This document shows, piece by piece, positions 11,292 to 29,549 of a stretch of DNA of 37,999 bases (position 1 is its first letter; each line of letters begins with the position of its first letter). The notes beneath the pieces are model-generated. The model was not told the DNA's origin and did no database searches. It saw nothing but the letters and a program-made list of their open reading frames with translations. Origin of the DNA: a virus; IMG/VR virus record IMGVR_UViG_3300008267_000135, positions 1-37,999 of that record, one strand, 5' to 3'. A program made the translations under genes and the position numbers.

Positions 11292-12208
11292 TAAACAAGC
11301 CCCTGAACTGTGATAATCATTTCGTTAATTGTAGGCGTTTCAATCGGTATGCGCGAGCCTCGCCCGAATCCGTAAACCAATGTCGCGTCGTCTGCTGCAT
11401 TTTCACCAAACCAGACGCAGTTAACGCCGCGCACATCTTTTAAAATGTTTCGCACATAGTTTATACGGTTTTTCTGAACTGCGATACGAAACTCAACCAA
11501 GTCGGCGGTGCGGCGGCGTACAACCTGCCGATTGCCGAAATCGTCAGTTTCGTAAACGCTATAATCAAGCGTTTCGATAGATGTGCCGTAAAGCGCCTCA
11601 CCAAGCGGCTGCTGGTTGCCTATCACGATTTCACCGACACCAATTGCAGCAGCGCCGGAAAAAGTAACCTGTATTTTTGGGTTATTGTATGCTGGCAAAT
11701 CAATCAAAACAAACTGAGTCCTGAATACGATTGGCGAAAAGAACCAAGTGTATTCATCTATCACCAGCATGTCGTCGGTTAGATCTAAATCGTTATTGTA
11801 AACCTCTGTCACGCCGTCAAAAACCTTGACGTTAACCGCATCAACGCCGGATAGATTGAACGCTGAAATAGAGTTGCATAAGCCAACCGGCGAAAGCTCA
11901 ATGGTAAGTGGAGATGCAGACTCTGTTGAACGGGTATCAATAACCGCATCAAACGCCCTGTATCGGTTTACAGAGCTAACCTCTATCCATGTTTGTACCG
12001 CCTTTGCTGCGCCAACGTCAGGCGCATCTGTTGTGTCTGGAGTTGCCACCACTTCGTACAGCTTGCGCGTTGATGACATTATGCGCCGAGTTCCGGTGGC
12101 GTATGGTCCTGAACTCCACTCAATTTCACCAACGCTTGCGTCAGGCATTGGAATGGATGATGCAGTTAAAACAGCTGGCGTAACTTGCGTTGGAACTATC
12201 AGAATCAC
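11291..12208 (-). CDS. Tail tip / distal tail protein
   Basis: 305 residues from a GTG start overlapping the tape-measure stop (GTGA). The N-terminal third has the pattern 'GEIEWSSGPYATGTRRI...KLYEVV', often seen in phage proteins attached to tail ends. The rest is beta-rich and ends in a compact domain (DLVEFRIAVQKNRINYVRNILKDV). It is the only mid-size gene right after the tape measure, so it probably caps the tube. No lambda gpJ-size hub protein follows, making this the main tail-tip candidate. Confidence 0.6.
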   Translation of the reverse strand: MILIVPTQVTPAVLTASSIPMPDASVGEIEWSSGPYATGTRRIMSSTRKLYEVVATPDTTDAPDVGAAKAVQTWIEVSSVNRYRAFDAVIDTRSTESASPLTIELSPVGLCNSISAFNLSGVDAVNVKVFDGVTEVYNNDLDLTDDMLVIDEYTWFFSPIVFRTQFVLIDLPAYNNPKIQVTFSGAAAIGVGEIVIGNQQPLGEALYGTSIETLDYSVYETDDFGNRQVVRRRTADLVEFRIAVQKNRINYVRNILKDVRGVNCVWFGENAADDATLVYGFGRGSRIPIETPTINEMIITVQGLV

Positions 12209-15200: not shown

Positions 15201-16593
15201 CTTTTTCTATTTCGTTTAATTCTTCCAGTGCGTCCATATGGTCGCCCATGGCGTCATCCAGCTTAACCATTGCAGCGGATAAGCCGGTAGTTGCAGCAGC
15301 TGATTCTGTCGCCTGAACTTTGTATTCAGCCAACCTATCTGTGGCACCGCTTGTTGATGCGCTTAGTTGGTCGTACTTCAGGCGCAACCCGTCGGCAGCG
15401 GTAATCTGGCTGCTGAATGATTGTAGCGCTGCATCGCGCTCACCCATGATTGATGTCAAAGACGCCTCACGCGCCGCACTGATGCGCTCGAACTCTGCTG
15501 CAATGTTTACTGATTCCTCAGTGATATCCAAGTATGAGCCGATTGCTTTTGCGTAAACAGCTACGCCATCGACAAAGGCAGACAACTCTACAGTTGCTAT
15601 CTGAATAAATGCCCTGATGTTTTCAGGAATGTTTTTGAATGCGTCGATAATCAAGCGGGATGATTCGCTCATATCCAGATACCAATACTCGCCAGCATCA
15701 GAAAACAGCTGACCGACAAAATCCAGTACCGCCGCAATGTCACGACCCCAACCATTAAACTTGTCGCCAATGGCGTCAATGTATGCACCAAGCTGGCCGG
15801 ATGCGATAGAGTCTGTTAATTCACCAATTGCACTAGTCGCCATGCGGATGCCGTCAGTCATTAACTCACTCGCGCCTTGGCTAGAGATTGTGCGGAACAA
15901 TCCATCCCACGAGTCTGACAGGTTGCTGATTGCACCGTCCAAGGTGTTCATGCGGTTTGCCATAGCGGAGGCAAACTCGTTTTGACCAAGCCCAATCAAG
16001 TAACCTTCGATTTCTTCAGCTGACTTTTTAACTGTCGTTGTCATGCCTCGAAAGGTAAAGCTAACGTTATCGCCTTCTGATTTGGCCTTGATGCCGAATT
16101 CTTTTAAACGCTCAAACTCGCCCACGGTGGCGTCAGAAACAGCCTCTACCATTTGCGACAGGTCTTTACCCATAGCGGCGGCAGTATTACCGTATGACGT
16201 TAGCGCAGCTTCTGACGGTGTTAAGCCAAGGTTTACCAGTTGAGTAAAAGCTTTCGTTGCCTGCGCCAAGCTGTAAGGCGTGGTTTTGGCAAAATCTTCA
16301 ATGGCTTTGAATGCAGCAGTGGCATTTTCAGCACTGCCTGTTGCGGTAATTAATCCGGCATTTAATACGTCAAACTCGCGGGATGTTTCGATGAGCTTTT
16401 GCATTGCAGATGTTGCAGATACTAAGCCACCGACAGCGGCAGCTATGCCAGCGAAAGACTTGCCGATTGATGCGCCAGCGCCTGACATTGCCCTGTCAGT
16501 TTTAGCGCCTTGCTTTGATAGATTATCAAGCCCTTTTTCGGCTTTCATTAAGCCGGATGTGTCAGCGGCAAAGCCTATGGTCGCCAAGTCCAT
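12205..16593 (-). CDS. Tail tape measure protein
   Basis: 1462 residues, the largest gene. The N-terminus (IGFAADTSGLMKAEKGLDNLSKQGAKTDRAM) is the standard opening of siphophage tape measures. It is followed by a small hydrophobic stretch (IAAAVGGLVSATSAM), long coiled-coil regions, a hydrophobic/glycine-rich segment near 625-690 (AMMALMAGLGVFSGGGSGS), and further helical parts rich in A, E and Q (e.g. DAARDAAQSAFGKL). It sets tail length and helps DNA pass into the cell. A dedicated promoter lies upstream at 16623-16665. Many opposite-strand frames over it are shadows. Confidence 0.92.
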   Translation of the reverse strand: MDLATIGFAADTSGLMKAEKGLDNLSKQGAKTDRAMSGAGASIGKSFAGIAAAVGGLVSATSAMQKLIETSREFDVLNAGLITATGSAENATAAFKAIEDFAKTTPYSLAQATKAFTQLVNLGLTPSEAALTSYGNTAAAMGKDLSQMVEAVSDATVGEFERLKEFGIKAKSEGDNVSFTFRGMTTTVKKSAEEIEGYLIGLGQNEFASAMANRMNTLDGAISNLSDSWDGLFRTISSQGASELMTDGIRMATSAIGELTDSIASGQLGAYIDAIGDKFNGWGRDIAAVLDFVGQLFSDAGEYWYLDMSESSRLIIDAFKNIPENIRAFIQIATVELSAFVDGVAVYAKAIGSYLDITEESVNIAAEFERISAAREASLTSIMGERDAALQSFSSQITAADGLRLKYDQLSASTSGATDRLAEYKVQATESAAATTGLSAAMVKLDDAMGDHMDALEELNEIEKDRIAGKESDIAEKLEIYEAEEGAIDSLIAKVNDFGGAWTNSGSAMIDAFGSAADSVDDYMKRLSTIADLEGKLKGVRDDSASSAQDKAKAELGLADLQYQTNRANLSMLSKTAGAAASMFKEQSKERKALHSMEKAFAAVEIALALQKASANAVAAITNQGSGDPYTAFGRIAAMMALMAGLGVFSGGGSGSYSAPTQGGTGTVAGDTGAQSGSINNAQEEYRDIALDQLAELRSISDSMNALSSGIEGLAMSLVRSSSFGGAGVQGLGTTQNGTGAIKLADKLGLSGVLGSLGDNIIGKVLGGIFGSTKKSLLDTGFQFDAQSIADILSGGFEGYYFNVIETTKKKLFGLSKKVTTDTELTNVESSILSEIGGIFKHLASAVTGAVDSLGVETANSIQNFVVSLGSISFKDMKGEEIQKELEAMFSQQGDLMALYVFPQIEKYQKMGEGALETLMRVAKEQAVFNDGIDKIGQSLGDLSNLIRVDVAQSIITMMGGLDKFNSAVNTYFSEFFTETEQFDYLTKQLTEAFASLGLPMADTKEEFRALVDGLDLTTEAGQAMFAALMELVPGLAEWIKLSEQQAEQQEKALDFTKQRQQLEIRLQEAMGNTAAAIEMRRQIELASVDESLRSLLLQIYAAEDAAAAQRELAAAQNSAAAAAEKAADAARDAAQSAFGKLQDAAQREKDRLSTELGLKLETIDKEREALTSQRDAVIAGYQAQGQAVQQYISQLEGISDVINNFIGSTGSAENPFKRLEQIFNETKAGLTPDQGELQSVLGAINSSGSAGFASATDQQRAMAIARGQASGIGGVIGGRLAGARSQADLIAQQIEDANKYYAAELLKLDEAAALAQQLHDEQVELIDEQLAQAEKQLNALLGVDDRILTMSEASAEFYEALAETNEIQLAKQDQLIAATYSISAAIQAQTSTYWQGMQEMIKAPPVTAPEVKNEGEPVTQDMADLLKEILAASKANADHASKSASMLQEMTVGGLDVRVEA

Positions 16594-16622: not shown

Positions 16623-16665
16623 AGTATAACCCACAACAAAGCGCTTGCGAAGGTTATGCGTAACC
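16623..16665 (-). promoter_or_regulatory. Late promoter before tape measure, with 14-bp element
   Basis: Read leftward: GGTTACGCATAACC (16652-16665), then TTCGCA as a -35-like box (16646-16651), 17 bases, and TATACT (16623-16628). The 14-mer is palindromic except for its central mismatch. Here it lies just upstream of the -35, while at the other three sites it lies in the spacer. Transcription would start about 20 bases before the tape-measure ATG. Confidence 0.55.
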
Positions 16666-16671
16666 GCAAAT

Positions 16672-16694
16672 AAAAAGCCCTCACATGGAGGGCT
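16672..16694 (-). terminator. Terminator between tail chaperone and tape measure
   Basis: AGCCCTC-5 bases-GAGGGCT is a 7-bp perfect stem followed leftward by a T-rich tail (TTTTTATTT). It ends the tail-tube/chaperone unit a few bases before the tape-measure promoter. Confidence 0.8.
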
Positions 16695-16698
16695 AAAT

Positions 16699-17091
16699 TC
16701 AAGCTAAACCAAAAGCCTTTTTCATCTTCAATGCTTCGGCTTTTCTGGCTTCTTCTTCGGCTTGCTGTTCATCATAGATAAATGGTGGCTCAACATCTTT
16801 GCTGTTGTACTGCCTGAGATATGCGCGGGACATATCAACAAGGCATTCGCACTCCCACGCATTCAGCAGATTAAAAGTCTGTGACTGATAAGCTGCTATG
16901 TCCTGCCATGATATCGCGGCCAATCCATTCGAGCCTGACGAAACAATGCCGATTTTATTTAATTCTTCGAGTAGGTAATCCGCCGAAACTTCCGGCATCA
17001 TCCTGAAAACGCTATCTTCCGGCAGCGTGTCAATCCGAGGTGTTCTGTCGTTATCATCCGGCGCAGCATGTAGCCACGCCAGATGTTGCAC
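16699..17091 (-). CDS. Second tail assembly chaperone candidate
   Basis: 130 residues from a GTG at 17091. The frame is open upstream only to 17118. It contains EVSADYLLEELNKIGIVSSGSNGLAAISWQDIAAY and an acidic, basic-tailed C-terminus. Its position between a gpG-like gene and the tape measure is that of the gpT-like partner, usually made by ribosomal frameshifting. I looked for a slippery heptamer at the end of the upstream gene and found none, so separate initiation is likelier. The ribosome site is weak (GAG about 13 bases upstream). Confidence 0.6.
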   Translation of the reverse strand: MQHLAWLHAAPDDNDRTPRIDTLPEDSVFRMMPEVSADYLLEELNKIGIVSSGSNGLAAISWQDIAAYQSQTFNLLNAWECECLVDMSRAYLRQYNSKDVEPPFIYDEQQAEEEARKAEALKMKKAFGLA

Positions 17092-17111
17092 GTATAGAAG
17101 TAGCTCGGATT

Positions 17112-17516
17112 TTAAGCCTTAAAAAGCTCAGTCCGGTCTGCCATTGCAGCGTCAACCTGCTCTTTAATCCAGCTATGCTCAGAGTACAGCTTGACGGCGG
17201 CTTGGTAGCTAAACGGCAAGTCCTTACCATCCATCTGCAAACCAGACCATGACAACGTACATTTTGAAATCAGCTCAACGCCGCGCTTTTCAATGTCGTC
17301 AATATCCATTTCGTCTTTGCGTTTTTTGTTCAAATTAGCCTGACGAATGCGAGCCTTTAACTCACCACGAAACAAAGCAGAATCAGAGCCGGCAACAACG
17401 ATAGTCATTGCTTCGCCTTTGTCGTTAGTCAGCTTTTCGCCTGTAGCAGGGTGCCGCAGTTGAACGGTAACGCCTGCATCAGCCAATGCCGATACGTTAA
17501 GTTTGGATAAATCCAT
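17112..17516 (-). CDS. Tail assembly chaperone (gpG-like)
   Basis: 134 residues from the ATG at 17516, chosen because GAGG lies six bases upstream; the open frame extends earlier without a ribosome site. The N-terminus MDLSKLNVSALADAGVTVQLRHPATGEKL is the typical start of phage tail assembly chaperones, which bind the tape measure until the tube forms. It sits between the tail tube gene and tape measure, as expected. Confidence 0.75.
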   Translation of the reverse strand: MDLSKLNVSALADAGVTVQLRHPATGEKLTNDKGEAMTIVVAGSDSALFRGELKARIRQANLNKKRKDEMDIDDIEKRGVELISKCTLSWSGLQMDGKDLPFSYQAAVKLYSEHSWIKEQVDAAMADRTELFKA

Positions 17517-17615
17517 AATAAACCTCATCAAAGTTATCATCCAGAAAGTTGCCGCCAGCGGGAGTGGATGAGTCTCCATGCAGCGCTGCACTGCCAGCGG
17601 CTTTATCATAGTAAT

Positions 17616-17640
17616 AAAAAAGGCCGGCGAAAGCCAGCCT
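17616..17640 (-). terminator. Terminator after tail tube gene
   Basis: Leftward AGGCTGGC-TTTC-GCCGGCCT forms an 8-bp stem with one G-T pair, then TTTTT. It lies 20 bases after the tail-tube stop and before the chaperone gene, so it should lower chaperone expression relative to tube protein. Confidence 0.85.
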
Positions 17641-17659
17641 CTTTGGTGGTGCTTGGCTT

Positions 17660-18109
17660 TTACGGAGCGGCAACTTCAACTGGCGGCCAGTTAAACCGCA
17701 CTTCAAAGTTTGAACCAATCATGCTGTTGGCAGAGCCTGGATTGCGCTGACCGTTAAAGGACATGCCGCCAGAGTAAACAATTGAGCCATCAGGAAGCAA
17801 AACCTTAACGCTTAACTCGTCAACGTTTTCTAAGATGTTGGCTCGAACTAGGTTTTGGCCAGCATCTTCTGAGTCGTAGTTCATTTCGCCAGAAACTGAG
17901 CCGTAGTTTTTGTGGCCTTTGTAGGATTTCAGCGCGCCATCGCCAAGCGTCCGAACTTCTACAGGGTCACGAGATACACCGAATGGAGAAATAGACACAA
18001 TTTCTTTTACTTCGGTGTAGGTTAAAGCAGCGTAGCCTGTGGCGTCGCGGGTTGCCGGTGAAGCGGCAGACACAAAAATCTTTGTGCCGGTACTAGTCAT
18101 TACAGCCAT
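17660..18109 (-). CDS. Major tail tube protein
   Basis: 149 residues. The opening (MAVMTSTGTKIFVSAASPATRDATGYAALTYTEVKEIVSI) and YGSVSGEMNYDSEDAGQ match the lambda gpV / HK97-type tube fold used by siphophages: small, beta-rich, polymerised around the tape measure. It has its own promoter upstream (18156-18184) and a strong terminator downstream, as suits a protein needed in many copies. No sheath gene is next to it, supporting a non-contractile tail. Confidence 0.85.
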   Translation of the reverse strand: MAVMTSTGTKIFVSAASPATRDATGYAALTYTEVKEIVSISPFGVSRDPVEVRTLGDGALKSYKGHKNYGSVSGEMNYDSEDAGQNLVRANILENVDELSVKVLLPDGSIVYSGGMSFNGQRNPGSANSMIGSNFEVRFNWPPVEVAAP

Positions 18110-18155
18110 TGTATAGCCCTCAAATTAAAAGTGATTGATCAATCATCCGATTGAT

Positions 18156-18184
18156 AGTATATGCGGTAACACGTAACCACGCAA
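18156..18184 (-). promoter_or_regulatory. Late promoter before tail tube, with 14-bp element in the spacer
   Basis: Leftward: TTGCGT (18179-18184), 17 bases, TATACT (18156-18161). The spacer holds GGTTACGTGTTACC (18165-18178). Just downstream, a perfect 14-bp palindrome TGATTGATCAATCA (18132-18145) lies in the leader of the tail-tube message and could be a second operator. Confidence 0.6.
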
Positions 18185-18186
18185 TC

Positions 18187-18225
18187 ACTGGTCGGAGTTG
18201 TTGGATTTTAGATATGTGTTATGGT
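18187..18225 (+). promoter_or_regulatory. Rightward promoter candidate for the moron gene, with ACTGGTCGGAG element
   Basis: ACTGGTCGGAGTTGTT (18187-18202) runs into TTGTTG (-35-like, 18198-18203); 16 bases later comes TATGGT (18220-18225). The same element with a 16-base spacer occurs at 21396-21436 and 29898-29938. It is back to back with the tail-tube promoter, so the two are divergent. Confidence 0.45.
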
Positions 18226-18253
18226 TGCGGTTGGATGAAATTGGAGATTTGAA

Positions 18254-18493
18254 ATGAACATCACTTTAATTATTGAAAACGTAAAGTCATGCAGTGAGAC
18301 TATGGCGCTTTGCAATACGCTGGTTGAGGCACTGAAAAACGAAAGCGTGATAGAGATTTTAGGGCAAAAGACCAAGGTTTACAGCGGTGAGATTGACTGC
18401 GGCACTGTGGAAGTGACCAGTAAGCAATACCCTCAAGCGCCGCGCAGTAGCGTTATGGGTCGGGCTGAATTTGAGCTTTGCTTGGTCAATTGA
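18254..18493 (+). CDS. Moron-like hypothetical protein on the opposite strand
   Basis: 79 residues, the only rightward gene inside the 33-kb leftward block. GGAG lies eight bases before ATG, and no leftward gene covers this segment, which supports it being real. The product (MNITLIIENVKSCSETMALCNTLVEALKNE, then beta-rich FELCLVN) is a small soluble alpha/beta protein with four cysteines (13, 20, 49 and 76). No family recognised. Its 3' end overlaps the tail terminator gene by eight bases, tail to tail. Position between tail tube and tail terminator genes fits a moron: an inserted gene with its own promoter. Confidence 0.65.
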   Translation: MNITLIIENVKSCSETMALCNTLVEALKNESVIEILGQKTKVYSGEIDCGTVEVTSKQYPQAPRSSVMGRAEFELCLVN

Positions 18494-18884
18494 CAACAGT
18501 CCACCTTGCGCTAACCGAATACACGAAAAACTCACCCTCAACCCGCGCCGGAGACACTGAGCAGCCCTCAAGGTTTATGATAGTGTCGCCGTCGATTAAC
18601 GCTCTAGCCTGACGCGCAAAGCCCGCCCGCAACAAGTCGCAATACTCCAGCGCTTTAAACTTGCTGGAGTTTTTCGGCACAATAACGTCTATTTGGTAAA
18701 TTCCGTCTTGCCTCTCGCCGCTTGAGACGCCAAGGTTAAAGGTGTCGTTAAACAAAACAGCTTCGCGCAGGTATGCAGCATTAACTGCCGGTGTAAATGC
18801 AATGTTTTCATTCGCAATTGTCGGCAATCCGCTAATCGTCGCTAATCGTCCGCGCAGTAATGTTGCTATCTTCTTGTGATTCAT
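18486..18884 (-). CDS. Tail terminator protein (DUF4128-like)
   Basis: 132 residues. The opening MNHKKIATLLRGRLATISGLPTIANENIAFTP and LFNDTFNLGVSSGERQDGIYQIDVIVPK follow the DUF4128 pattern of small phage proteins taken to be tail terminators (lambda gpU-like), which cap the tube and join it to the head. It overlaps the upstream neck gene in an ATGA pair. The following structural gene in the operon is the tail tube. Confidence 0.75.
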   Translation of the reverse strand: MNHKKIATLLRGRLATISGLPTIANENIAFTPAVNAAYLREAVLFNDTFNLGVSSGERQDGIYQIDVIVPKNSSKFKALEYCDLLRAGFARQARALIDGDTIINLEGCSVSPARVEGEFFVYSVSARWTVVN

Positions 18885-19279
18885 TTAACCCTCGCAACTT
18901 CTTCTGCGACAACTGTTTGCCAATTTGCTACAGATAGACGCACCATGCCAGCAGGCGCTTGCTGTGACCACGCATCGTATTCAAGGCGCTCTGCGTATGG
19001 CAATGAGTTGGTGAAGTGGAAAACCTGACCCACTGCCAGCCCGTTTAGTTTCGCATCCAGCCTGCCGATTGCTTGAGAGCCTGACTTGTCGATTAACTCA
19101 CTGGTATCTGTATCGGCTGCGCCGTATGCGCTTAGCCAGTTTGCGCGAAACCGGCCAGTATCAACGGGCGACTTGGCAACAATAGAGCCGCCAACCCGCA
19201 TCAGGCTATTCTGTGCAACCTTCAGTAGCTTTTGCTTATTTCGCGCTGCTATCTTTTGCAGGTCGGTTGTTAGGCTCAT
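18881..19279 (-). CDS. Neck / tail completion protein (HK97 gp10-like)
   Basis: 132 residues. An N-terminal helix (LQKIAARNKQKLLKVAQNSLMRVGGSIVAKSPVDTGRFRANW) carries the 'SPVDTGR.R..W' block that marks HK97 gp10-like tail-completion proteins. It then has FHFTNSLPYAERLEYDAWS, also typical. It should form part of the head-tail interface. Adjacent genes overlap by a few bases. Confidence 0.82.
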   Translation of the reverse strand: MSLTTDLQKIAARNKQKLLKVAQNSLMRVGGSIVAKSPVDTGRFRANWLSAYGAADTDTSELIDKSGSQAIGRLDAKLNGLAVGQVFHFTNSLPYAERLEYDAWSQQAPAGMVRLSVANWQTVVAEEVARVK

Positions 19280-19629
19280 TATTTTCTCAGTTGCAAAGTA
19301 TAAAAAACAACATCAGTCGAATCCGGCGCGAGTGGCGAAACAGAGATAACCCGCCACACTTCACCAGCAAGCGTTACGCGCATATCAATCAATGGTGCCG
19401 CGCGAGTGGATAATAAAAACTTAGCGTCACCCATTTGCACTAGCGAGCCGTCAATCTCTGCTTTTTTGTAGTTCAGCTTTACGCCTGCGCCAGCAATGCT
19501 AACCGCCGGAACGCTGACGGGCTGACCTAAGCCGTCATAGCTGGTTTGCGGCTGAGTTGACAACACGCAAGGTGCGCCAAACTCTGCAATCAGCTCGTCG
19601 GCTGTGGCTTGGTCGGCTAGGTAGCTCAT
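19279..19629 (-). CDS. Head-tail stopper/adaptor
   Basis: 116 residues, beta-rich. The stretch LNYKKAEIDGSLVQMGDAKFLLSTRAAPLIDMRVTLAGEVWRVISVSPLAP has the 'd..v...g..w.V..v.pl.p' ending common in phage head-closure proteins. Gene order (adaptor, this gene, gp10-like, terminator) agrees with a stopper. It starts in an ATGA overlap with the upstream adaptor. Confidence 0.68.
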   Translation of the reverse strand: MSYLADQATADELIAEFGAPCVLSTQPQTSYDGLGQPVSVPAVSIAGAGVKLNYKKAEIDGSLVQMGDAKFLLSTRAAPLIDMRVTLAGEVWRVISVSPLAPDSTDVVFYTLQLRK

Positions 19630-20072
19630 ACGCGCATCAGCCCAGTGCCGCCAACAACAAACGGACGGAGCAGCATGTCCAACTCCGGAGCTTTGCGCTT
19701 AAACGCCTGTTGTGAGCCTTCGACGTATTCAATTTCTTTTTCCAGTACGTCTACTTTCTTCATCTCGCGCTTAACTTGTCCAGTCGCAACAGATGCAAGG
19801 TCAAGAGTTAACAATCCAGCCTGCTGCATCTCAACAGCTTTTAGCGCGGCCTTCTTGATGTTGGCAATGGTGACTTCATCAGTTGGCAACTTCATGCTTT
19901 GCGTGTCGCTAACCGGCTGGCCTTTGAAGTTGTAATAGGTATCAATGAATCTGGCAGACTTTACAATGTCATACTGTATGGTCGCGTAATTCGGGATTAC
20001 TCCGCCATCATCAGCATAAGCCAGGTATTCCGCTTCGGTGATGTATGCGTTGGTGCCGACAGTGATTGCCAT
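19626..20072 (-). CDS. Head-tail adaptor (DnaT-like family)
   Basis: 148 residues. The start MAITVGTNAYITEAEYLAY and ARFIDTYYNFKGQPVSDTQSMKLP match the phage family often labelled DnaT-like ssDNA-binding, which by position is a head-tail adaptor. 'Fkg.pv...Q.l..P' is its signature. It is the first of four clustered connector genes. A role in DNA binding is not supported by context. Confidence 0.75.
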   Translation of the reverse strand: MAITVGTNAYITEAEYLAYADDGGVIPNYATIQYDIVKSARFIDTYYNFKGQPVSDTQSMKLPTDEVTIANIKKAALKAVEMQQAGLLTLDLASVATGQVKREMKKVDVLEKEIEYVEGSQQAFKRKAPELDMLLRPFVVGGTGLMRV

Positions 20073-20389
20073 TATGAATTACCCTTCTGCTTTCTTCGCT
20101 CTTGCCAGTCCATGTATTTACCGGCAGCAATGAAGAATCTTTCAACGATGAGCAACAGTACAGCGATAGCCGATAACATATCCATCCAAGGCACCGCCGC
20201 GATTAGGTCGAACACGAAATAAACCGGATCAACAATCCATGATGGTAGCCATTCATGCAGCGTGTCACGCAACTGGTAAATCGCACTCGTTCCACCAGCG
20301 TAGGTCAAAAACTTATGCTGAAGTGTCTGCATGTATGCAGCTGTGTCAGTTGTTATCGTGCTGATTAAGTGCTTTACGCTTTCTTTCAT
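20072..20389 (-). CDS. Membrane-anchored hypothetical protein
   Basis: 105 residues. An N-terminal amphipathic region is followed by a hydrophobic stretch (about 55-90: WIVDPVYFVFDLIAAVPWMDMLSAIAVLLLIVERFF) with one or two membrane helices, and a basic tail (DWQERRKQKGNS). It is reminiscent of holin-like proteins. The lysozyme is 11 kb away, so a lysis role is not supported by position. It ends at the adaptor gene's start. No clear ribosome site before the ATG. Confidence 0.55.
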   Translation of the reverse strand: MKESVKHLISTITTDTAAYMQTLQHKFLTYAGGTSAIYQLRDTLHEWLPSWIVDPVYFVFDLIAAVPWMDMLSAIAVLLLIVERFFIAAGKYMDWQERRKQKGNS

Positions 20390-20489
20390 CGTTGTCCGCT
20401 TTACGTTGCTTTATCCGTTTAAAGCCATTATAGACAATTAATCCTGCCAAAAAAAGGGCGATTATATCCGGCAAAATTCCGCCCTCCAT
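20346..20489 (-). CDS. Small single-span membrane protein (47 aa)
   Basis: 47 residues: MEGGILPDIIALFLAGLIVY forms one membrane helix (about 6-21), followed by a highly charged tail (FKRIKQRKADNDERKRKALNQ). It overlaps both neighbours by 44 and 62 bases. The charged tail after a single helix looks like a real protein, but the ribosome site is poor, so it could be a chance frame. Confidence 0.42.
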   Translation of the reverse strand: MEGGILPDIIALFLAGLIVYNGFKRIKQRKADNDERKRKALNQHDNN

Positions 20490-20850
20490 TGCTTAGCAGA
20501 TACACGAGGATAAAAACATCTAATCCGTTGATTAGCCAAGGGTAGCACATATAGAAAACTGTTTCATTTGGCGAGACAAAATAATCCACCGCCGCCAGCC
20601 AGTTTATAAAAGCCACGCAGATGAGCGCTTGACGGATTTCGTATGAAAGTTTGATATTGATAGTCGCGTTTAGTGAGTAGAGAGCCGCGAGAAGGCATGA
20701 GGCGACTAGCCCGCTATCTGTGCTATCGAACAGGAGCTGCCCGAGTGCGTGGAAAACAACAATAACTATTGCCTGCCGGTTAACAAAAAAAGCCGCTATG
20801 AAAGCGGCTAGTTTTATGTTGTCGATATCACTTGCGAGTAGGCTTTCCAC
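20428..20850 (-). CDS. Polytopic membrane protein
   Basis: About 140 residues from a GTG at 20850; an earlier in-frame start would run through the small basic gene upstream. Four hydrophobic segments are visible (around IKLAAFIAAFF, AIVIVVFHALGQLLF, LVASCLLAALYSL and LICVAFINWLAAV, with another near MCYPWLINGLDVFILVYLL). No family recognised. Its company of other membrane genes in the head region is unusual and could be an exclusion or envelope-modifying module, which is inference. Confidence 0.55.
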   Translation of the reverse strand: MESLLASDIDNIKLAAFIAAFFVNRQAIVIVVFHALGQLLFDSTDSGLVASCLLAALYSLNATINIKLSYEIRQALICVAFINWLAAVDYFVSPNETVFYMCYPWLINGLDVFILVYLLSNGGRNFAGYNRPFFGRINCL

Positions 20851-20890
20851 CGCTCTTTTTGCCTTTTGGTTTCTGTTGTGATTGTGGCAT
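20828..20890 (-). CDS. Very small basic protein (20 aa)
   Basis: 20 residues, MPQSQQKPKGKKSGGKPTRK, very rich in lysine. It starts just after the stop of the frame before it and overlaps the membrane gene by 23 bases. The composition is not random, but a protein this short cannot be confirmed from sequence alone. Confidence 0.3.
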   Translation of the reverse strand: MPQSQQKPKGKKSGGKPTRK

Positions 20891-20989
20891 TTAATAATCC
20901 TCAATTAGCCGGAATTGGCGAACCAAGGATAACATAAAAATACTGGACTTACCGCCCAAGCGCCCAACTTGTGAAAAGGTAGTAACCAT
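20891..20989 (-). CDS. Possible small ORF (32 aa)
   Basis: Starts ATG at 20989 with AAGG only two bases upstream. It encodes MVTTFSQVGRLGGKSSIF and a short hydrophobic end. It joins end to end with the 20-residue basic ORF. Weak evidence: it is listed because this segment has no better gene and its start lies at the edge of the folded segment next to it. Confidence 0.25.
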   Translation of the reverse strand: MVTTFSQVGRLGGKSSIFMLSLVRQFRLIEDY

Positions 20990-21057
20990 AACCTTGGCTG
21001 CACATTCTCCCGTCATCAACCCGCTACGACTGCCGTAGGAGTCGGCAAGCTAAGGTT
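20990..21057 (-). ncRNA. Structured non-coding segment with a 10-bp closing stem and alternative inner hairpins
   Basis: Bases 20990-20999 pair with 21048-21057 (10 bp, one G-T). Inside are three overlapping, mutually exclusive hairpins: CTACG/CGTAG (21024-21028 with 21034-21038), CGACT/AGTCG (21027-21031 with 21040-21044) and GCCG/CGGC (21032-21035 with 21043-21046). No gene covers it. Strand is assumed from surrounding transcription. It could be a leader switch, an attenuator or a DNA structure; no known RNA family recognised. Confidence 0.35.
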
Positions 21058-21158
21058 GCGGCTGCGATGTGGTGACGCGCTACAAAGTAATCATTGCGAC
21101 AACCAGCCCAACTCCATGTCAGTGACTGCGCGAAGTAAAAATAGCATAGATTCAAATA

Positions 21159-21368
21159 TTAACAACCGCCAGTCATTAACTCTTGCTTTCTAAGCTCGAA
21201 TTCGTGACGCCAGCAAATTGGTGGAAAATCAAAAGCTGTATGGTCAACCATTTTTGTGATGTAGGCACCACCAGCAAGGCACAAAAACTCACCTTCGATA
21301 GTACCTTTAGGCCATAAACCATTAAGGTCTAATATAGCCTTGTCGATTTTTTCCATTCTTTCGCTCAT
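21159..21368 (-). CDS. Hypothetical protein
   Basis: 69 residues: MSERMEKIDKAILDLNGLWPKGTIEGEFLCLAGGAYITKMVDHTAFDF, ending with two cysteines (CWRHEF, GGC). AAGGAGC lies upstream of the ATG at suitable spacing. It follows the promoter candidate at 21396-21436, so it may be an accessory (moron-like) gene between decoration and connector genes. About 100 bases after its stop a folded segment begins. Function unknown. Confidence 0.65.
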   Translation of the reverse strand: MSERMEKIDKAILDLNGLWPKGTIEGEFLCLAGGAYITKMVDHTAFDFPPICWRHEFELRKQELMTGGC

Positions 21369-21395
21369 ACCATCAGCTCCTTAACTAAGGAAACA

Positions 21396-21436
21396 ACAAT
21401 AGCACAACCAACGGCGCGGACAACTCCGACCAGTCA
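21396..21436 (-). promoter_or_regulatory. Promoter candidate with TGACTGGTCGGAG element
   Basis: Leftward: TGACTGGTCGGAGTTGT (21420-21436), with TTGTCC (21418-21423) as -35-like box, 16 bases, and TATTGT (21396-21401). It lies between the stop of the structural gene at 21444 and the small gene at 21368. The -10 is weak; the shared upstream element is the main evidence. Confidence 0.42.
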
Positions 21437-21443
21437 GTTTATT

Positions 21444-21989
21444 TTAATACCGATAGCCTCTACTGCGATAAATGCTAATCTGCGCGCTCGGTGCGATTGG
21501 TACGCCATAAGCCTGCAATGCTGCGCTAGGCGTTGACGCAGATAGATCGCCTGAGTTGTCGCCAGTTGAGCTGCGGGCAAACATCGAGCGAAGCTTAATC
21601 CCCTGGTTTAAAAACAGCGTCGAGAAGTCAAAGAAAACATCATTCTCTGTTGAGTTGTCCAGCTTGATATCTATCGAGTTGCCAAGGATATTCCACACCG
21701 TGCCGCCGTCTACGCTAACCTCAACCCAAAAGAAGATTGATGAAACGCCAGACGCGCCAGTCCTGCCGACACGCAGCCGGCTTTTAATAAAGAATGGCCC
21801 CGTCTTTAATATAGTCAACGTACCATCTGCGCCCATGGCTGCAATCCCGCTTGGTGAAGTCAGTGCGGCTCCGTACTTAACTTGCTTTGGCGTGTCAATT
21901 GGAGAACCTGATTGTGTTGTGACGTCGGTGAATGAGACTTCAAGCGTCAAGCCTGAGTCGCCATCTCCGCGCGGTAGTTCAAGAGCCAT
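21444..21989 (-). CDS. Putative head decoration or virion protein
   Basis: 181 residues from the ATG at 21989, placed behind GGGAGG; an earlier start five codons upstream lacks one. The product is beta-rich (LTLEVSFTDVTTQSGSP; FFWVEVSVDGGTVWNILGN; NDVFFDFSTLFL), fitting a capsid decoration or fibre-like surface protein. The gene between it and capsid is similar in style (FFQGEALLKVVVTGTAEWEVY). The start overlaps the upstream stop by one base. Confidence 0.6.
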   Translation of the reverse strand: MALELPRGDGDSGLTLEVSFTDVTTQSGSPIDTPKQVKYGAALTSPSGIAAMGADGTLTILKTGPFFIKSRLRVGRTGASGVSSIFFWVEVSVDGGTVWNILGNSIDIKLDNSTENDVFFDFSTLFLNQGIKLRSMFARSSTGDNSGDLSASTPSAALQAYGVPIAPSAQISIYRSRGYRY

Positions 21990-22225
21990 CAGTACACCTC
22001 CCATTCAGCGGTTCCGGTGACTACGACCTTCAGCAGAGCCTCACCCTGAAAGAAGTCATAAGAGCCGGATGAACCCCAGTTATCGCCAGTATCAACCCAC
22101 TTATCGGTGGTGCCGTCTAGCAACGCCTGCAACTTAACGCTTGAGCTTACGCCAACTTCGACAACAATAGTTCGCTCCCTGCGACCAAGTACGGGATTTA
22201 AAACAGCGTTCACAGTCTTTGACAT
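21989..22225 (-). CDS. Hypothetical small beta-rich virion protein
   Basis: 78 residues: MSKTVNAVLNPVLGRRERTIVVEVGVSSSVKLQALLDGTTDKWVDTGDNW, then a C-terminal strand pattern. Small beta-rich proteins right after the major capsid gene are often decoration or stabilising proteins. It begins after the terminator at 22244-22265, so read-through or a promoter within that gap is needed. The ribosome site is AGAGGG. No family recognised. Confidence 0.62.
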   Translation of the reverse strand: MSKTVNAVLNPVLGRRERTIVVEVGVSSSVKLQALLDGTTDKWVDTGDNWGSSGSYDFFQGEALLKVVVTGTAEWEVY

Positions 22226-22243
22226 ACTAAAACCCTCTAATGT

Positions 22244-22265
22244 AAAAAACCCGCACTAGGCGGGT
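22244..22265 (-). terminator. Terminator after the capsid unit
   Basis: Leftward ACCCGC-CTAG-type loop-GCGGGT: 6-bp stem (22250-22255 with 22260-22265) with a 4-base loop, followed by six T residues (22249-22244). It lies five bases after the 55-residue gene's stop. Confidence 0.85.
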
Positions 22266-22270
22266 CTTAT

Positions 22271-22438
22271 TTAACTACGCTTGCCGCGCGTCGGCTTCTC
22301 TGGCTCAGGCTCTTTCGCCTCTACCGGATTGTCGTAACCTTCAGGCATAAAGGCAGCATCGACAACCTTATAGCCCTTCTTGTTCCATGCGCGCTTATCT
22401 TCAAAGCTTACTGGCATTGGTAAATATACTGGCTTCAT
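22271..22438 (-). CDS. Small hypothetical protein after major capsid (55 aa)
   Basis: 55 residues: MKPVYLPMPVSFEDKRAWNKKGYKVVDAAFMPEGYDNPVEAKEPEPEKPTRGKRS. The ribosome site is GAGGTG before ATG. It is flanked by two terminators, the capsid one upstream and its own downstream. Similar short proteins ending in an acidic-basic tail ('kgykvvd..f.p.g') commonly follow phage capsid genes. It may be a head accessory factor. Function not known. Confidence 0.72.
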   Translation of the reverse strand: MKPVYLPMPVSFEDKRAWNKKGYKVVDAAFMPEGYDNPVEAKEPEPEKPTRGKRS

Positions 22439-22453
22439 TTTGCACCTCGAAAG

Positions 22454-22473
22454 AAAAGGCGACCGAAGCCGCC
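22454..22473 (-). terminator. UUCG attenuator/terminator directly after major capsid
   Basis: Leftward GGCGGC-TTCG-GTCGCC (22458-22473, one G-T pair) followed by TTTT (22457-22454). It begins nine bases after the capsid stop and should lower transcription past the capsid gene. Confidence 0.8.
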
Positions 22474-22481
22474 TCTATTCA

Positions 22482-23462
22482 TTACTGAGCTGCGTCAGCG
22501 ATGGTGATAACACCGGCTGAGTTCTTAATGTCAGTAACAACCAGATCCCAATTCGAACCGGTCGCCAGCTCTGCATCAGTTGGAGACTTACCGCCGTTGG
22601 TGGTGTCCCAAGTGTAGCCTTTCAGCATTACGCTGAAATCGTAATCAGCCTGGAAGCTGGCTTCGATACGCTGCTTGCCGTTCACGCGCTCGATGTTAGT
22701 CTCAACGCTTGAGCCGTCCATGATGGTGGCAGCACCGCTAGTTAGTGACAGCACGTTGAACTTGTTCGGCGTACCGGCTGCGTACAGAGCCGGAGCATCA
22801 GTAACAACGACTGGCTTACCTAAGATATCAACGATGGTTACGTTCTGAGCTTGGAACAGCTGCGGAGCGTTTGCAAGGTTCTTATCAATCAGCTTGTGAT
22901 AAGCAGCGCCATTCATAATCTGAGCGGCCAATGACTGACTGCGGTCACCAAACTTGGCGTGAGCGCCATTTAGCGCGCCGTAGTTCAGAGCGCCAGCACC
23001 GGCAGTTAAAGCTGATACGTCGTTTTTGGCCGCGACTTGGTTAGAGATAGCGGCAACCAAAGCAGCAATCACAGTGTTTAACTGGTCTTGTAGGATTGAC
23101 TCGGACAACTGCTGTGAAATCAGCGCGATTGCCTGAGCTTCGTTTGCCTGAATCCATGACAGTTGCGAAGGCTCCCACACGATAGGACCGAAACCGCCAG
23201 CAACCTTAACACCTGAGTCTTTTAATTGAGACAGGTTAGTGGCAGATGCTGCGCCGTTAGCAGCGTAACGGTCAACACGACGACGGCTTGCGTGTAATGC
23301 CGAATACATTGAGCGCTCGAAGAAGTCACCTTCAAAGTTTTGGTTAGCCAGAATAATAGTGCCGTTTGAAGCACCGTTAAACTTCTCAATCATCTGGCCT
23401 AAAGTTTCGTATGTCGCCTCTTTAACGTATTCGTTAAAAACGACCATGTTAGTTAATGCCAT
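22482..23462 (-). CDS. Major capsid protein
   Basis: 326 residues, HK97-fold type. The start MALTNMVVFNEYVKEATYETLGQMIEKFNGASNGTIIL and the FFERSMYSALHASRRRVDRYA stretch are typical of the capsid proteins that go with DUF4055 portals. An Ala-rich middle and beta-rich C-terminus follow. It lies right after the scaffold gene and before a UUCG terminator. There is no protease gene and no long N-terminal delta domain; a separate scaffold is used. AGGTG-type ribosome site upstream. Confidence 0.88.
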   Translation of the reverse strand: MALTNMVVFNEYVKEATYETLGQMIEKFNGASNGTIILANQNFEGDFFERSMYSALHASRRRVDRYAANGAASATNLSQLKDSGVKVAGGFGPIVWEPSQLSWIQANEAQAIALISQQLSESILQDQLNTVIAALVAAISNQVAAKNDVSALTAGAGALNYGALNGAHAKFGDRSQSLAAQIMNGAAYHKLIDKNLANAPQLFQAQNVTIVDILGKPVVVTDAPALYAAGTPNKFNVLSLTSGAATIMDGSSVETNIERVNGKQRIEASFQADYDFSVMLKGYTWDTTNGGKSPTDAELATGSNWDLVVTDIKNSAGVITIADAAQ

Positions 23463-23474
23463 GTCAGCACCTCA

Positions 23475-24158
23475 TTAGTTGGATAGTTTAAATTTCTTGG
23501 CGTAGTACGCCGCTCGCTCATTCTTTGAGCCATCAACTTTACCAGCCATACCCAAGGCACTGCCCGAGCTATTGCCGTTTGCAAGACCGCCGCCAAAGGT
23601 GGTGATATTGCCTTTTAACAGCGGGCTTAGCGAATCATCTTTCAACAATTCAGCTTTGAAACCTGCTAAATCTAACGCAGAGGCACTGCCGTCAGCGTTC
23701 AAATACGTCACTTTGCCAGTTTCTGCATCAACATCAATCCGGCTTGCAATCAAGGCTTTAAACGCCTTGCCGCCTAAATCTGTGGCCAGCTCGCCAGCTA
23801 AATCAGCAACCAATGCCGAGCGCTTCTCGGTCTTAATCTGGTTCGTCATGCGCTCAATGCGCGCTTCATACTGGCTTTTGCTTTCACCCAATCGCCGCTC
23901 TGCATCTGCAAGGATTTCATCAACCTTACCTTCCGCTTTCAACTTCTCAAGCGCTTTACGCTCAGCCTCAGCTTGTTGTTGCTGTTGCTTTGACTCGTAT
24001 TCTGTCAGCTTGGTGCTGGCTTCACGATACTTGTTATCCAAGTCGTTCAGCGTCTGCTTTAGCTTTGCATCTTTCGCCGGTACGAATTGCTCACCGTCCT
24101 GCACAAATGCTGCTCTTGCCTTTTCTGGCAAGCTCTCAAATTCTTCTTTCGTTAACAT
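23475..24158 (-). CDS. Scaffold protein
   Basis: 227 residues from the ATG at 24158 (AGAGG eight bases upstream; the frame also has an ATG at 24182 with a poorer site). It is charged and helical throughout: coiled coil about 35-115 (Q-rich KQQQQQAEAERKALEKL, then ADAERRLGESKSQYEARIERMTNQIKTEKR). A short beta segment and a basic C-terminal helix (NERAAYYAKKFKL) follow; that helix is the usual capsid-binding end. A dedicated promoter lies upstream at 24211-24239. Confidence 0.85.
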   Translation of the reverse strand: MLTKEEFESLPEKARAAFVQDGEQFVPAKDAKLKQTLNDLDNKYREASTKLTEYESKQQQQQAEAERKALEKLKAEGKVDEILADAERRLGESKSQYEARIERMTNQIKTEKRSALVADLAGELATDLGGKAFKALIASRIDVDAETGKVTYLNADGSASALDLAGFKAELLKDDSLSPLLKGNITTFGGGLANGNSSGSALGMAGKVDGSKNERAAYYAKKFKLSN

Positions 24159-24210
24159 GGGCACAGCCTCTAGTTGCCTCATCCAATGCCAAGCACAGCC
24201 TGACAGCCAC

Positions 24211-24239
24211 AGTATAAATAGTTACGCGTTACTTGGCAA
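24211..24239 (-). promoter_or_regulatory. Late promoter before scaffold/capsid, with 14-bp element in the spacer
   Basis: Leftward: TTGCCA (24234-24239; five of six consensus bases), 17 bases, TATACT (24211-24216). The spacer holds AGTAACGCGTAACT (24220-24233). The element overlaps the stop codon of the portal gene. Best promoter match of the four. Confidence 0.65.
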
Positions 24240-25685
24240 ATCACCGCCATCAGAGCGGTTTAGTAAATCTTCAGCGCTCGCAACAGTCCAACCTCCTTGC
24301 GCCAGCTGGTCAACAGCTTCCTGCCGGTCAATCAAGCCTGACAGGTAGTTTTCGCGGATTTGTTGGACGTCCTGAGCGCTGATTCTTGACTGGCTAAAAT
24401 CTTTCTTCAGTTTGATCTCAATCTGGTCGTTTTGTTCGACCATATCTTGAGGCCATAATCCTTCAAACATGCCGCAATATTGCAGAATGCGAGTGAAAGC
24501 GCCCTCAAGCTGATTCGCCAAACCAACCAGTCGGCTTGATTGCTCTTCGCTGTATGTTTGCACCTCGGTTGCCGTGCGACTGCCGGATAAATCAGCTGGA
24601 AATACAGCGCCCAATGCGCGAAGCTTGGCTTCGTTGTCTTTGAAATATCTCTCGTAACCTTCAAGTGCAACATTGGCCGAAAGTAGTTCGCCGCGAGACT
24701 CACCAGAGAAGATGTTCACAGCGCCAGCTCCAGTTGCGACATAATCGCGCCCGTTGACTTCTTTGAACTGCTCCCAATCAATCGAGCCAATGCCGTAAAA
24801 GTTAGTCGTTGGCGGCAGCATCCGCATCGCCTCTTTGTACTCGGCGCTCACCTGGTAACGCGCCAAAGTCAAATCAACAATGCCAGATAGATAACCCATT
24901 TCAACCGGCATGGAGCCAGCTTGCAAGGCTTCATCACTAACAATCTGCACCGGCAACCACTTAAGCGGAGCGCCGCCGACTTGAACATAACTGCGTTCGC
25001 CTTCTTGCAATCCGCCATCTGCGCCACTAACAATCTTTTGCTGGTAGTAATTGCCGTTTTCGTCGAGCGCCAGAATCAGGTAGCTATCAATCGTCTTTTG
25101 CGTCATTGCAGCTTGATTAAAAATCAAGCCTTGTTCATAAAAGCAGATGTAGGACAGCTGCATCTTGCCGTTGATTCGCTGAAAGTGCCAATACACCACA
25201 GAGTCACGGTTGTATTGTTTAATCGTTGCGCGTGGCTTTAAAGCCTTCAGGTCAGCAACTGAAACGCCTTCAGCTGGCAGGTCAGATAAACCCTGATAAT
25301 CAGCAACCAACACATGCCACTTAGCTGGCAGGATGTTCTGTGCCGTTTGACTCATCATTGCGTCGATGCTCATGCCGTCGCCGTCTGCATCTTCCAGCAG
25401 GTAGGATAAACGCTCAGGCACTTCGATTTCGGCGGTTTCAAATTCCATCTTGCCGACTAATGACTTCAGTGTCTGAGATGGGATTTCGTCAAACTCTGCG
25501 CCTGCGATGTACTGCTGATAGCGCATGCGGGCTGATTTACTGACGGTATCAAGGCTTGACGGATGCGGCAGATAATCAACGGTCTTTTGCTTGACGAAAA
25601 ACGCACCACGCACACAGTCGCGGATTTTAGTCAGCTCCGTCTGCATGAGTGTAAATTCAGGATGCTTAGTGATTGCTGTTAGCAT
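24222..25685 (-). CDS. Portal protein, DUF4055 family
   Basis: 487 residues, normal for a portal. The N-terminus (HPEFTLMQTELTKIRDCVRGAFFVKQKTVDYLPHP) and RYQQYIAGAEFDEIPSQTLKSLVGKMEFETAEI match the DUF4055 portal pattern. The dodecameric ring sits at one capsid vertex, where terminase docks and DNA passes. The last 25 or so residues are polar. The start is 25 bases after a TATACT promoter. Unusually, the MuF-type gene lies upstream of it rather than downstream. Confidence 0.87.
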   Translation of the reverse strand: MLTAITKHPEFTLMQTELTKIRDCVRGAFFVKQKTVDYLPHPSSLDTVSKSARMRYQQYIAGAEFDEIPSQTLKSLVGKMEFETAEIEVPERLSYLLEDADGDGMSIDAMMSQTAQNILPAKWHVLVADYQGLSDLPAEGVSVADLKALKPRATIKQYNRDSVVYWHFQRINGKMQLSYICFYEQGLIFNQAAMTQKTIDSYLILALDENGNYYQQKIVSGADGGLQEGERSYVQVGGAPLKWLPVQIVSDEALQAGSMPVEMGYLSGIVDLTLARYQVSAEYKEAMRMLPPTTNFYGIGSIDWEQFKEVNGRDYVATGAGAVNIFSGESRGELLSANVALEGYERYFKDNEAKLRALGAVFPADLSGSRTATEVQTYSEEQSSRLVGLANQLEGAFTRILQYCGMFEGLWPQDMVEQNDQIEIKLKKDFSQSRISAQDVQQIRENYLSGLIDRQEAVDQLAQGGWTVASAEDLLNRSDGGDLPSNA

Positions 25686-25710
25686 GGCAACGCCTCAGAT
25701 ATTTGTTTGT

Positions 25711-25740
25711 AGTATAGCGCTGGTTACGCGTTACCGTCTA
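25711..25740 (-). promoter_or_regulatory. Late promoter before portal, with 14-bp element in the spacer
   Basis: Leftward: TAGACG (25735-25740; four of six), 18 bases, TATACT (25711-25716). The spacer holds GGTAACGCGTAACC (25722-25735), the most complete copy of the element. It overlaps the last codons of the MuF gene. The start of transcription would be about 20 bases before the portal ATG. Confidence 0.6.
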
Positions 25741-26818
25741 GTGCTCGCAATTCTGCAAGCGTAAGTGGTCTGCCTGCAAGGTCAACGAATTGCGACAGTG
25801 ACAGCTTGCCTTGCCGGAATATCTCCGCCTTGCCTTTACCAAGCGCTGAATCTTGGAACCACGCAGGCTGGCGTTTAAGCCATTCGTCGTATTGCGTGTA
25901 CTTGATTTGGCCAGCTTTGAAGATGTCGGAATCTTTGCGCCCACGATACTTAACCTTTTTGTCGGTCTTATCCTGTCGTTGCTCGAATTCTTCTTTGGCC
26001 TCTGCGCCTCGCTGACCGCCAACCGCCGCCCGAGTATCAACATCTTGCATGGCGATTGCGGGAATCATTGTTGACCGGCAATTGAAGTGAAGCGGCGGTA
26101 CAGGCTTCGCTGGGTCGTCAATCTTGTATCGATTACCGTCTTTGCTTGAGCAGGTCAGTGTAGTGCGATTGTCTAACGTGGCAACAAACACAACCTCATC
26201 GACATCGTTATCAATGAACATTGCTTCGCGCGCTTGGTTTGAGTAGTGGATAACTCCAGTGCGGACAAGCGCCTCAGCTTGCTTGGTTAGCTGACCATCC
26301 ATCAGCAGCTTTAGCTCCCGCAATATCTCGTTTGTTGTCGCGCCTTTACCGTAACCATTGGCAATAATGGAGTCGATGCGATCAACATCATTCAGCACTT
26401 TTGACTTAACAAACTGCGCCCACGTTCCGGCATCCACTTTATTACCATCAGTCAGGCTCATAATCGCCTTGTTGATGTAGCTTGTTATCTTTTCGTCAGC
26501 CGGAGTGTTTAACTTGATGCTAACCGCACTCCCTACAAGACCAGCATAATAACCGCTGTCGTATATTGCGATATTCTCAAGCTCTTTTGTGACTTCCTGC
26601 CAGCCCTCGTTATCAATCTCAGTGATAGCGCGCCTGATTGCCGCTGTGAGCTGGTTTCGCTTGGTGATTGATACATTGTCGCCTGCGTCCAATAGAATCA
26701 GTCTGGCGGCTTTGTAAGCAGCTTCAAGAGTTGGTGCCAGTTTGGAGCGCAAGATGCCGCTTGCGAGTCTGCCAAGATATACGCTGCGCTGCTCTGTCAA
26801 ATTCAGCAAGTCATTCAT
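25724..26818 (-). CDS. Head morphogenesis protein, MuF / SPP1 gp7 family
   Basis: 364 residues. Residues about 150-260 hold the MuF-type core (TNEILRELKLLMDGQLTKQAEALVRTGVIHYSNQAREAMF; then VDEVVFVATLDNRTTLTCSSKDGNRY and PVPPLHFNCRSTMIP, with the conserved 'RT', 'D.rTc..C...dG' and 'P.H..CRs' elements). The C-terminal WLKRQPAWFQDSALGKGKAE is a common end in this family. A minor head protein near the portal, possibly ejected with DNA. It precedes portal here. Confidence 0.88.
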   Translation of the reverse strand: MNDLLNLTEQRSVYLGRLASGILRSKLAPTLEAAYKAARLILLDAGDNVSITKRNQLTAAIRRAITEIDNEGWQEVTKELENIAIYDSGYYAGLVGSAVSIKLNTPADEKITSYINKAIMSLTDGNKVDAGTWAQFVKSKVLNDVDRIDSIIANGYGKGATTNEILRELKLLMDGQLTKQAEALVRTGVIHYSNQAREAMFIDNDVDEVVFVATLDNRTTLTCSSKDGNRYKIDDPAKPVPPLHFNCRSTMIPAIAMQDVDTRAAVGGQRGAEAKEEFEQRQDKTDKKVKYRGRKDSDIFKAGQIKYTQYDEWLKRQPAWFQDSALGKGKAEIFRQGKLSLSQFVDLAGRPLTLAELRALDGNA

Positions 26819-29428: not shown

Positions 29429-29457
29429 AGTATAACCCATAAACAAAAGCCCCTCAA
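29429..29457 (-). promoter_or_regulatory. Promoter before terminase genes (no 14-bp element)
   Basis: Leftward: TTGAGG (29452-29457), 17 bases, TATACT (29429-29434). The -35 overlaps the loop of the terminator just upstream. It shares GGGTTATACT with the tape-measure promoter but lacks the 14-bp near-palindrome. Confidence 0.5.
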
Positions 29458-29463: not shown

Positions 29464-29471
29464 GTGAAAGG

Positions 29472-29549
29472 TGCAAGTTAACGGAATCGAACCGATGACG
29501 CCAACCTGCCGCATGGTATGGTTGCGCTCTGCCACTGAGCTAAACTTGC
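29472..29549 (-). tRNA. tRNA-like gene with an enlarged (13-nt) anticodon loop; probably aberrant or pseudo-tRNA
   Basis: Leftward: a 7-bp acceptor stem (GCAAGTT/AACTTGC), T8 A9, D stem GCTC/GAGC with loop AGTGGCA, anticodon stem CAACC/GGTTG, a 5-base variable loop, T arm with TTCGATT and one mismatch in the stem, and discriminator A followed by CC then T, not CCA. The loop between the anticodon stem arms is 13 bases instead of seven, so no standard anticodon can be called (T-ACC and T-GCG are the only T33-type choices). It may be a decayed tRNA or a tRNA-like structure with another role. Confidence 0.65.

Follow-up and report, generated by a model that had tools for sequence, protein, structure and literature searches.

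A 14-bp near-palindrome at four late structural promoters of a phage genome is a putative clade-specific operator

What might tie together late promoters that stand apart along a phage genome is the question raised by a 14-base-pair (bp) word that recurs ahead of virion genes in the IMG/VR virus record IMGVR_UViG_3300008267_000135. The window analyzed here is this whole record (37,999 bases; G+C, 0.477), in which an earlier note, made from the DNA letters, had described four leftward 14-mers, each tied to a -10 TATACT, at the portal, scaffold/capsid, tail-tube, and tape-measure promoters. We found all four where they had been described, with the consensus RGTWACRYRTWACY (Table 1). In agreement with the note, three of them (portal, scaffold, and tube) lie inside a -35/-10 spacer of 17 to 18 nucleotides (nt), and the tape-measure 14-mer lies outside it, 23 nt upstream of TATACT, where it abuts the upstream side of the -35-like TTCGCA. 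The -35 of the portal promoter (TAGACG, at 18 nt) is weak. Three of the four also come close to direct repeats (GTWAC-N2-GTWAC), which leaves the symmetry class of the 14-mer ambiguous. The 14-mer accompanies four of the seven leftward TATACT sequences in the window; those at 6684, 19297, and 29429 lack it, and the last of these looks like the small-terminase promoter.

The pattern RGTNACGYRTNACY matches the window exactly four times, compared with 0.03 matches per shuffled window (at most 1 in 400 shuffles). Since this pattern was derived from the four sites themselves, two fairer tests were added, namely, a matrix built from other genomes and a blind search for near-palindromes common to the 100 nt before predicted genes. 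The matrix trained on other genomes only picked out exactly these four window sites, at 19.9 to 23.0 bits with the next-best match at 7.7, and on shuffles it gave 9.6 bits on average and 16.8 at most; this bears out the earlier claim of an element shared by several separate late promoters ahead of structural genes. The blind search ranked the 14-mer first in the window, level first in the relative G001, and second in the relative G003; applied upstream of the genes of the relative G017, it did not bring up the 14-mer, and no equivalent palindrome stood out by this search in the motif-free sister genomes G012 and G013. The note had also proposed a position-matrix scan, with matches expected solely before structural genes. 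That expectation held in the window, where the 14-mer is confined to the four late promoters, and almost entirely in the relatives, in which two strong matches fall within coding DNA (G002, 21075; G017, 12502). It is extremely improbable that the four words arose by chance or were kept merely through overlapping coding sequence. Two of the sites do overlap gene 3' ends and provide the stop codon, as such an explanation would have it; however, the tube and tape-measure sites lie between genes and their flanks have diverged, the number of matches far exceeds the chance expectation, and the recurrence of the word across a clade of relatives refutes the idea.

The motif stands at the portal and/or scaffold promoters of G001, G002, and G003 (portal 65 to 66% identical to that of the window) and of G017 (50%), as well as of the fragments L044, L047, L048, L078, L148, and L152. 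In G001 to G003, it is also found before the tail tube and tape measure, with extra weaker or partly decayed copies before the chaperone and adaptor region. In a tree of 39 portal proteins, the 11 motif carriers form one clade with a support of 100/100, and the motif label requires 1 change, compared with an average of 9.8 when labels are shuffled. The 28 rows outside this clade do not have the motif at either the portal or the scaffold position, some of them having isolated weaker matches elsewhere, and many retain sigma-70-like promoter sequences at these same positions, such as TTGACG N17 TAAAAT before the scaffold gene. Between the window and G001, the 14-mers are identical at 12 of 14 positions (portal), 13 (scaffold), 12 (tube), and 13 (tape measure), while the 40-nt flanks are near random (7 to 12 of 40 positions) with two exceptions: the flank upstream of the scaffold site (30/40) codes for portal, and the one downstream of the tube site reaches 24/40. 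At the tape-measure site, G002 and G003 match the window at just 9 of 14 positions, yet they carry another instance of the same consensus. Because orthologous sites are kept while most of their flanks are random, and because the 28 outsiders lack the motif at these promoters, we regard the 14-mer as a putative clade-specific late-gene operator. The motif is real; that it is conserved in one clade and nearly limited to the promoters of late structural genes is directly observed. The hexamer ACGCGT is underrepresented in the G001, G002, G003, and G017 records (5, 1, 3, and 3 occurrences against about 9 to 11 expected), and most of its occurrences in G001 to G003 fall inside motif copies.

The promoter setting of the element is likewise directly observed. 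Across 13 promoters picked as nonredundant, the best match to a -35 at a spacing of 17 or 18 nt scores 4.0 of 6 on average. Random positions averaged 2.13, and the promoter average was reached in none of 20,000 resamplings. The element thus lies within sigma-70-like promoters, which look able to work on their own with the element inside them. In the spacer, the distance from the 14-mer to the -10 varies between 2 and 5 nt, and the element is placed once upstream of the -35 (the tape-measure promoter of the window) and once downstream of TATACT (the adaptor site of G001). Such flexible placement in and around otherwise ordinary promoters fits the tolerance of steric repression. In MerR-type promoters, a dyad sits in an overlong spacer of 19 to 20 nt; the best spacers here are 17 to 18 nt, which is not the arrangement of MerR-type activation, and the position inside promoters with spacers of this length favors repression over activation. 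Terminator-like hairpins near the tape-measure promoter and elsewhere suit separate transcription units, with terminator-like matches overall barely above those in shuffles (28 versus 22.4).

The natural reading, and in our judgment a highly probable one, is that a common regulator reads the 14-mer. Our results lead us to propose further that one DNA-binding regulator would recognize the 14-mer shared by the separate sigma-70 promoters of the late structural units and, bound in the spacer, would in early infection most likely deny host RNA polymerase access to these promoters. Loss, titration, or antagonism of this regulator would then free the genes for portal, scaffold/capsid, tail tube, and tape measure at the same time. 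Protein binding to the 14-mer, the repressive effect, and the role in timing are all three what we infer here, and as a whole explanation, a spacer operator of one regulator that represses several late structural sigma-70 promoters seems to us somewhat more probable than the other explanations taken together. Several observations weigh against it: the -35 hexamers of several promoters are poor (TTGCGT, GTGCAA, and GTAGCA), like those of activator-dependent promoters; no copy of the 14-mer adjoins a candidate regulator gene in the window; the downstream site in the adaptor region is intact only in G001, with one change in G002 and G003; and by BLAST no DNA-binding family is present in all five motif-bearing long genomes and absent from every motif-free one. 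The first of these points leads to a different and rather unlikely reading, in which the 14-mer is an activator site and a phage factor bound to it brings in or remodels RNA polymerase where the -35 of a late promoter is weak, as T4 MotA does at middle promoters. The tube promoters and some tape-measure promoters are indeed weak in the -35 and retain the 14-mer plus TATACT, and the tape-measure site of the window lies upstream of the -35, the usual activator position. Most copies, however, fill the -35/-10 spacer, where a bound protein competes with polymerase; the spacers are of normal length, unlike those of MerR-type promoters, and the -35 match is above random.

The reader of the 14-mer might be encoded by the phage or by its host. 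A host reader, in which case the phages would have taken a host operator into their late promoters and the state of the host would set virion production, is possible, though less likely than not. In its favor, no phage DNA-binding gene tracks with the motif, and the early module of the window resembles the module of the motif-free G012 and G013, yet all the sites are retained. Moreover, the unrelated contig L087/G018, which has no protein homologues of the window (E value, 1e-3), carries two promoters, at 9234 and 10866, with TTGACA N17 TAACCT or TAAACT and the same 14-mer, as AGTAACGCGTTACY, in the spacer. These two promoters share flanks, however, and are probably one duplicated unit, so they may amount to one duplicated chance match. 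Against a broad host operator, a scan of 399 sampled genomes of one phylum for one form of the motif with a -10 spaced in this way gave no match, a weak negative because this phylum may not be that of the host. Matches to the motif plus TATACT in other unrelated viral contigs (L041, L042, L077, L079 to L081, L086 to L093, and L095 to L098) were not clearly above a rough chance estimate for the size of the collection, and a literature search for the 14-mer sequence returned unrelated papers only.

Among phage-encoded candidates, the earlier note had proposed the RHH-like protein at 36826 and the triple-HTH protein at 3605. As a reader, the RHH protein is not supported by its distribution, as it occurs only in the window, G012, and G013 (the copies in the motif-free G012 and G013 are 70% identical) and is missing from the motif-bearing G001, G002, G003, and G017. 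More generally, DnaB, the initiator, and the RHH protein of the window are common to G012 and G013 at 70 to 91% identity; because the window shares this module with motif-free phages and nonetheless has intact sites, the reader is probably not encoded there. The replication initiator (O-like, 35958-36776) is a most unlikely reader. Its iterons share ACGCGT with the 14-mer and, as AGTCACGCGTCAGT, are one position off the motif pattern, but a double dissociation argues against it: the initiator and its ACGCGT clusters occur in the motif-free G012 and G013, and neither the clusters nor the initiator were found in the motif-bearing G001, G002, G003, and G017. The 11-bp iterons of this gene (GCGTGACTGAC and ACGCGTGA type; 36301-36349, 36365-36402, and 36555-36585) lie beside a polypyrimidine tract, an arrangement within the initiator gene that looks like a lambda-type replication origin.

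The triple-HTH protein belongs to a multi-HTH family encoded last in the early operon, where a late regulator is usually found, and we consider it a candidate that is open to considerable doubt. Its AF2 model has three 3-helix units (mean pLDDT, 76; pTM, 0.34), and a fold search with this model, at a pTM of just 0.34, gave no significant PDB match. Full-length homologues are found in G017, G012, G013, G427, G431, and G433, with a more distant one in G429, and shorter, distant relatives occupy the same place in G002 and G003. That related genes stand at this position in the window, G017, G002, and G003, and that the recognition helices of the carriers appear by eye more alike than those of G012 and G013, would suit such a reader. 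On the other hand, in G001, which bears the motif, nothing matches the family profile at an E value of 1, and its early operon ends in a different, barely similar HTH gene; the family also occurs in motif-free genomes; and the proteins of the carriers are only about 30% identical in sequence while the motif is nearly constant. Two adjacent HTH genes (3331-3669 and 3605-4081, plus strand) close the early operon of the window, and similar HTH pairs are found there in G002, G003, G017, G012, and G013. Two further proteins were considered and set aside. The product of 1232-1582, with an HTH-like start, first seemed to track the motif, but its family is found throughout the group, G012 and G013 included, and its HTH part differs among genomes with identical sites. 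The product of 20428-20904 represents the sole family shared by all five long genomes with the motif and missing from the four motif-free ones; it matches a lipoprotein family and looks membrane bound. The reader of the 14-mer is probably the multi-HTH gene product, another phage factor missed here, or a host protein.

How does this arrangement compare with known systems? Operators of the lambda/434 type are palindromes of about 14 to 17 bp between the -35 and -10 of early promoters, whereas the operator proposed here lies at several late structural promoters and no copy was found beside a repressor gene. Phage genes are timed via special promoter or leader sequences by factors such as lambda Q, P2 Ogr, Mu C, and T4 MotA; in the window, by contrast, every unit has a sigma-70-like promoter to itself, the element lies mostly within the spacer, and no factor of these types was recognized among the window proteins scanned. 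Repressor sites of mycobacteriophage L5 type (operators and stoperators) provide many copies of one short site genome-wide for one regulator (PMC9283540). The likeness is that copies of a short site are scattered across a phage genome, within promoters and small gaps between genes, but the L5-type sites are asymmetric 13-mers, present in more than twenty copies per genome, orientation dependent, and read by a known immunity repressor, while the window has four copies of a near-palindrome at late promoters. No cognate immunity repressor gene was recognized among the window proteins scanned, a scan that covered not every gene.

A closer parallel comes from Oceanospirillum phage GJ44 (L073), whose capsid protein is 67 to 69% identical to that of the window and which lacks the 14-mer. 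GJ44 has a dispersed palindrome of its own, TAGACCWWGGTCTA, with six sites at up to one mismatch compared with 0.05 expected, a count that is partly circular as the pattern was derived from GJ44 itself. The word is located at 2580, 4310, 6312, 8264, 10036, 12473, and 26273, including the start regions of the small terminase (8264) and portal (10036) genes and, as a weaker site, that of the scaffold gene (12473), and sites are also present in the gap beside an antirepressor-like gene. The likeness lies in a single dispersed word at the terminase, portal, and scaffold promoters of a relative; the difference is that GJ44 uses another word, which overlaps or adjoins the -10. The text of the GJ44 paper does not contain "promoter" or "palindrom" (PMC8451122).

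The leftward late genes of the window follow the order small and large terminase, head morphogenesis, portal, scaffold, major capsid, head-tail connectors, tail tube, chaperone, tape measure, and lysis genes, with the replication genes (O-like initiator and DnaB) at the upstream end of the same strand and a rightward early operon that ends at 4081. Before the small terminase lies the promoter-like TTGAGG N17 TATACT (29429-29457, minus strand), which lacks the 14-mer and has GGGTTATACT in common with the tape-measure promoter. Just upstream of it and of a terminator-like hairpin lies a tRNA-like gene called by ARAGORN (29470-29549, minus strand; anticodon tacc, amino acid unassigned). A second, perfect palindrome, TGATTGATCAATCA, lies about ten nt past the tail-tube -10 (18118-18160 region) and is present in the window, G001, G002, and G003.

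Table 1. Sites, promoters, and genes of the window discussed in the text
Feature	Positions	Strand	Remarks
14-mer GGTAACGCGTAACC, portal promoter	25722-25735	-	Stop codon (25724-25726) of the upstream head-morphogenesis gene inside the site
Portal promoter	25711-25740	-	TAGACG (25740-25735), 18 nt, TATACT (25716-25711)
14-mer AGTAACGCGTAACT, scaffold/capsid promoter	24220-24233	-	Stop codon (24222-24224) of the portal gene inside the site
Scaffold promoter	24211-24239	-	TTGCCA (24239-24234), 17 nt, TATACT (24216-24211)
14-mer GGTTACGTGTTACC, tail-tube promoter	18165-18178	-	
Tail-tube promoter	18156-18184	-	TTGCGT (18184-18179), 17 nt, TATACT (18161-18156)
14-mer GGTTACGCATAACC, upstream of tape-measure promoter	16652-16665	-	
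Tape-measure promoter	16623-16651	-	TTCGCA (16651-16646), 17 nt, TATACT (16628-16623)
Terminator-like hairpin immediately ahead of the tape-measure promoter, between transcription units	16676-16694	-	Consensus match only
Head morphogenesis/minor head protein gene, upstream of portal promoter	25724-26818	-	PHROG 241, E 9e-86
Portal gene	24222-25685	-	PHROG 145, E 5e-69
Scaffolding protein gene	23475-24182	-	PHROG 206, E 1e-20
Major capsid gene	22482-23462	-	PHROG 247, E 3e-65
Major tail (tube) gene	17660-18109	-	PHROG 158, E 2e-19
Tape measure gene	12205-16593	-	PHROG 7740, E 4e-137
RHH-like protein	36826-37086	-	No Pfam or PHROG match; RHH class from the earlier note
Three-HTH protein, candidate reader, last gene of the rightward early operon	3605-4081	+	AF2 model

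The usual account of late genes in tailed phages has them as a single block under the control of antitermination, an activator, a sigma factor, or a new polymerase. Several separate structural promoters that all contain the same operator would, if true, be a different layout and one that is predictable from sequence alone. The 14-mers offer a short list of DNA probes for fishing out the reader, and the portal tree supplies natural motif-free controls at the same promoters. We tentatively propose, as an idea that may well need revision, that this phage clade relies on derepression to time virion production, with every structural unit under its own promoter for host polymerase and all of these promoters held by one common spacer operator. 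The reader would be exchangeable or host encoded, because the early module of the window relates to that of motif-free phages yet every operator was kept, and relatives like GJ44 may use a similar scheme with a different operator word.

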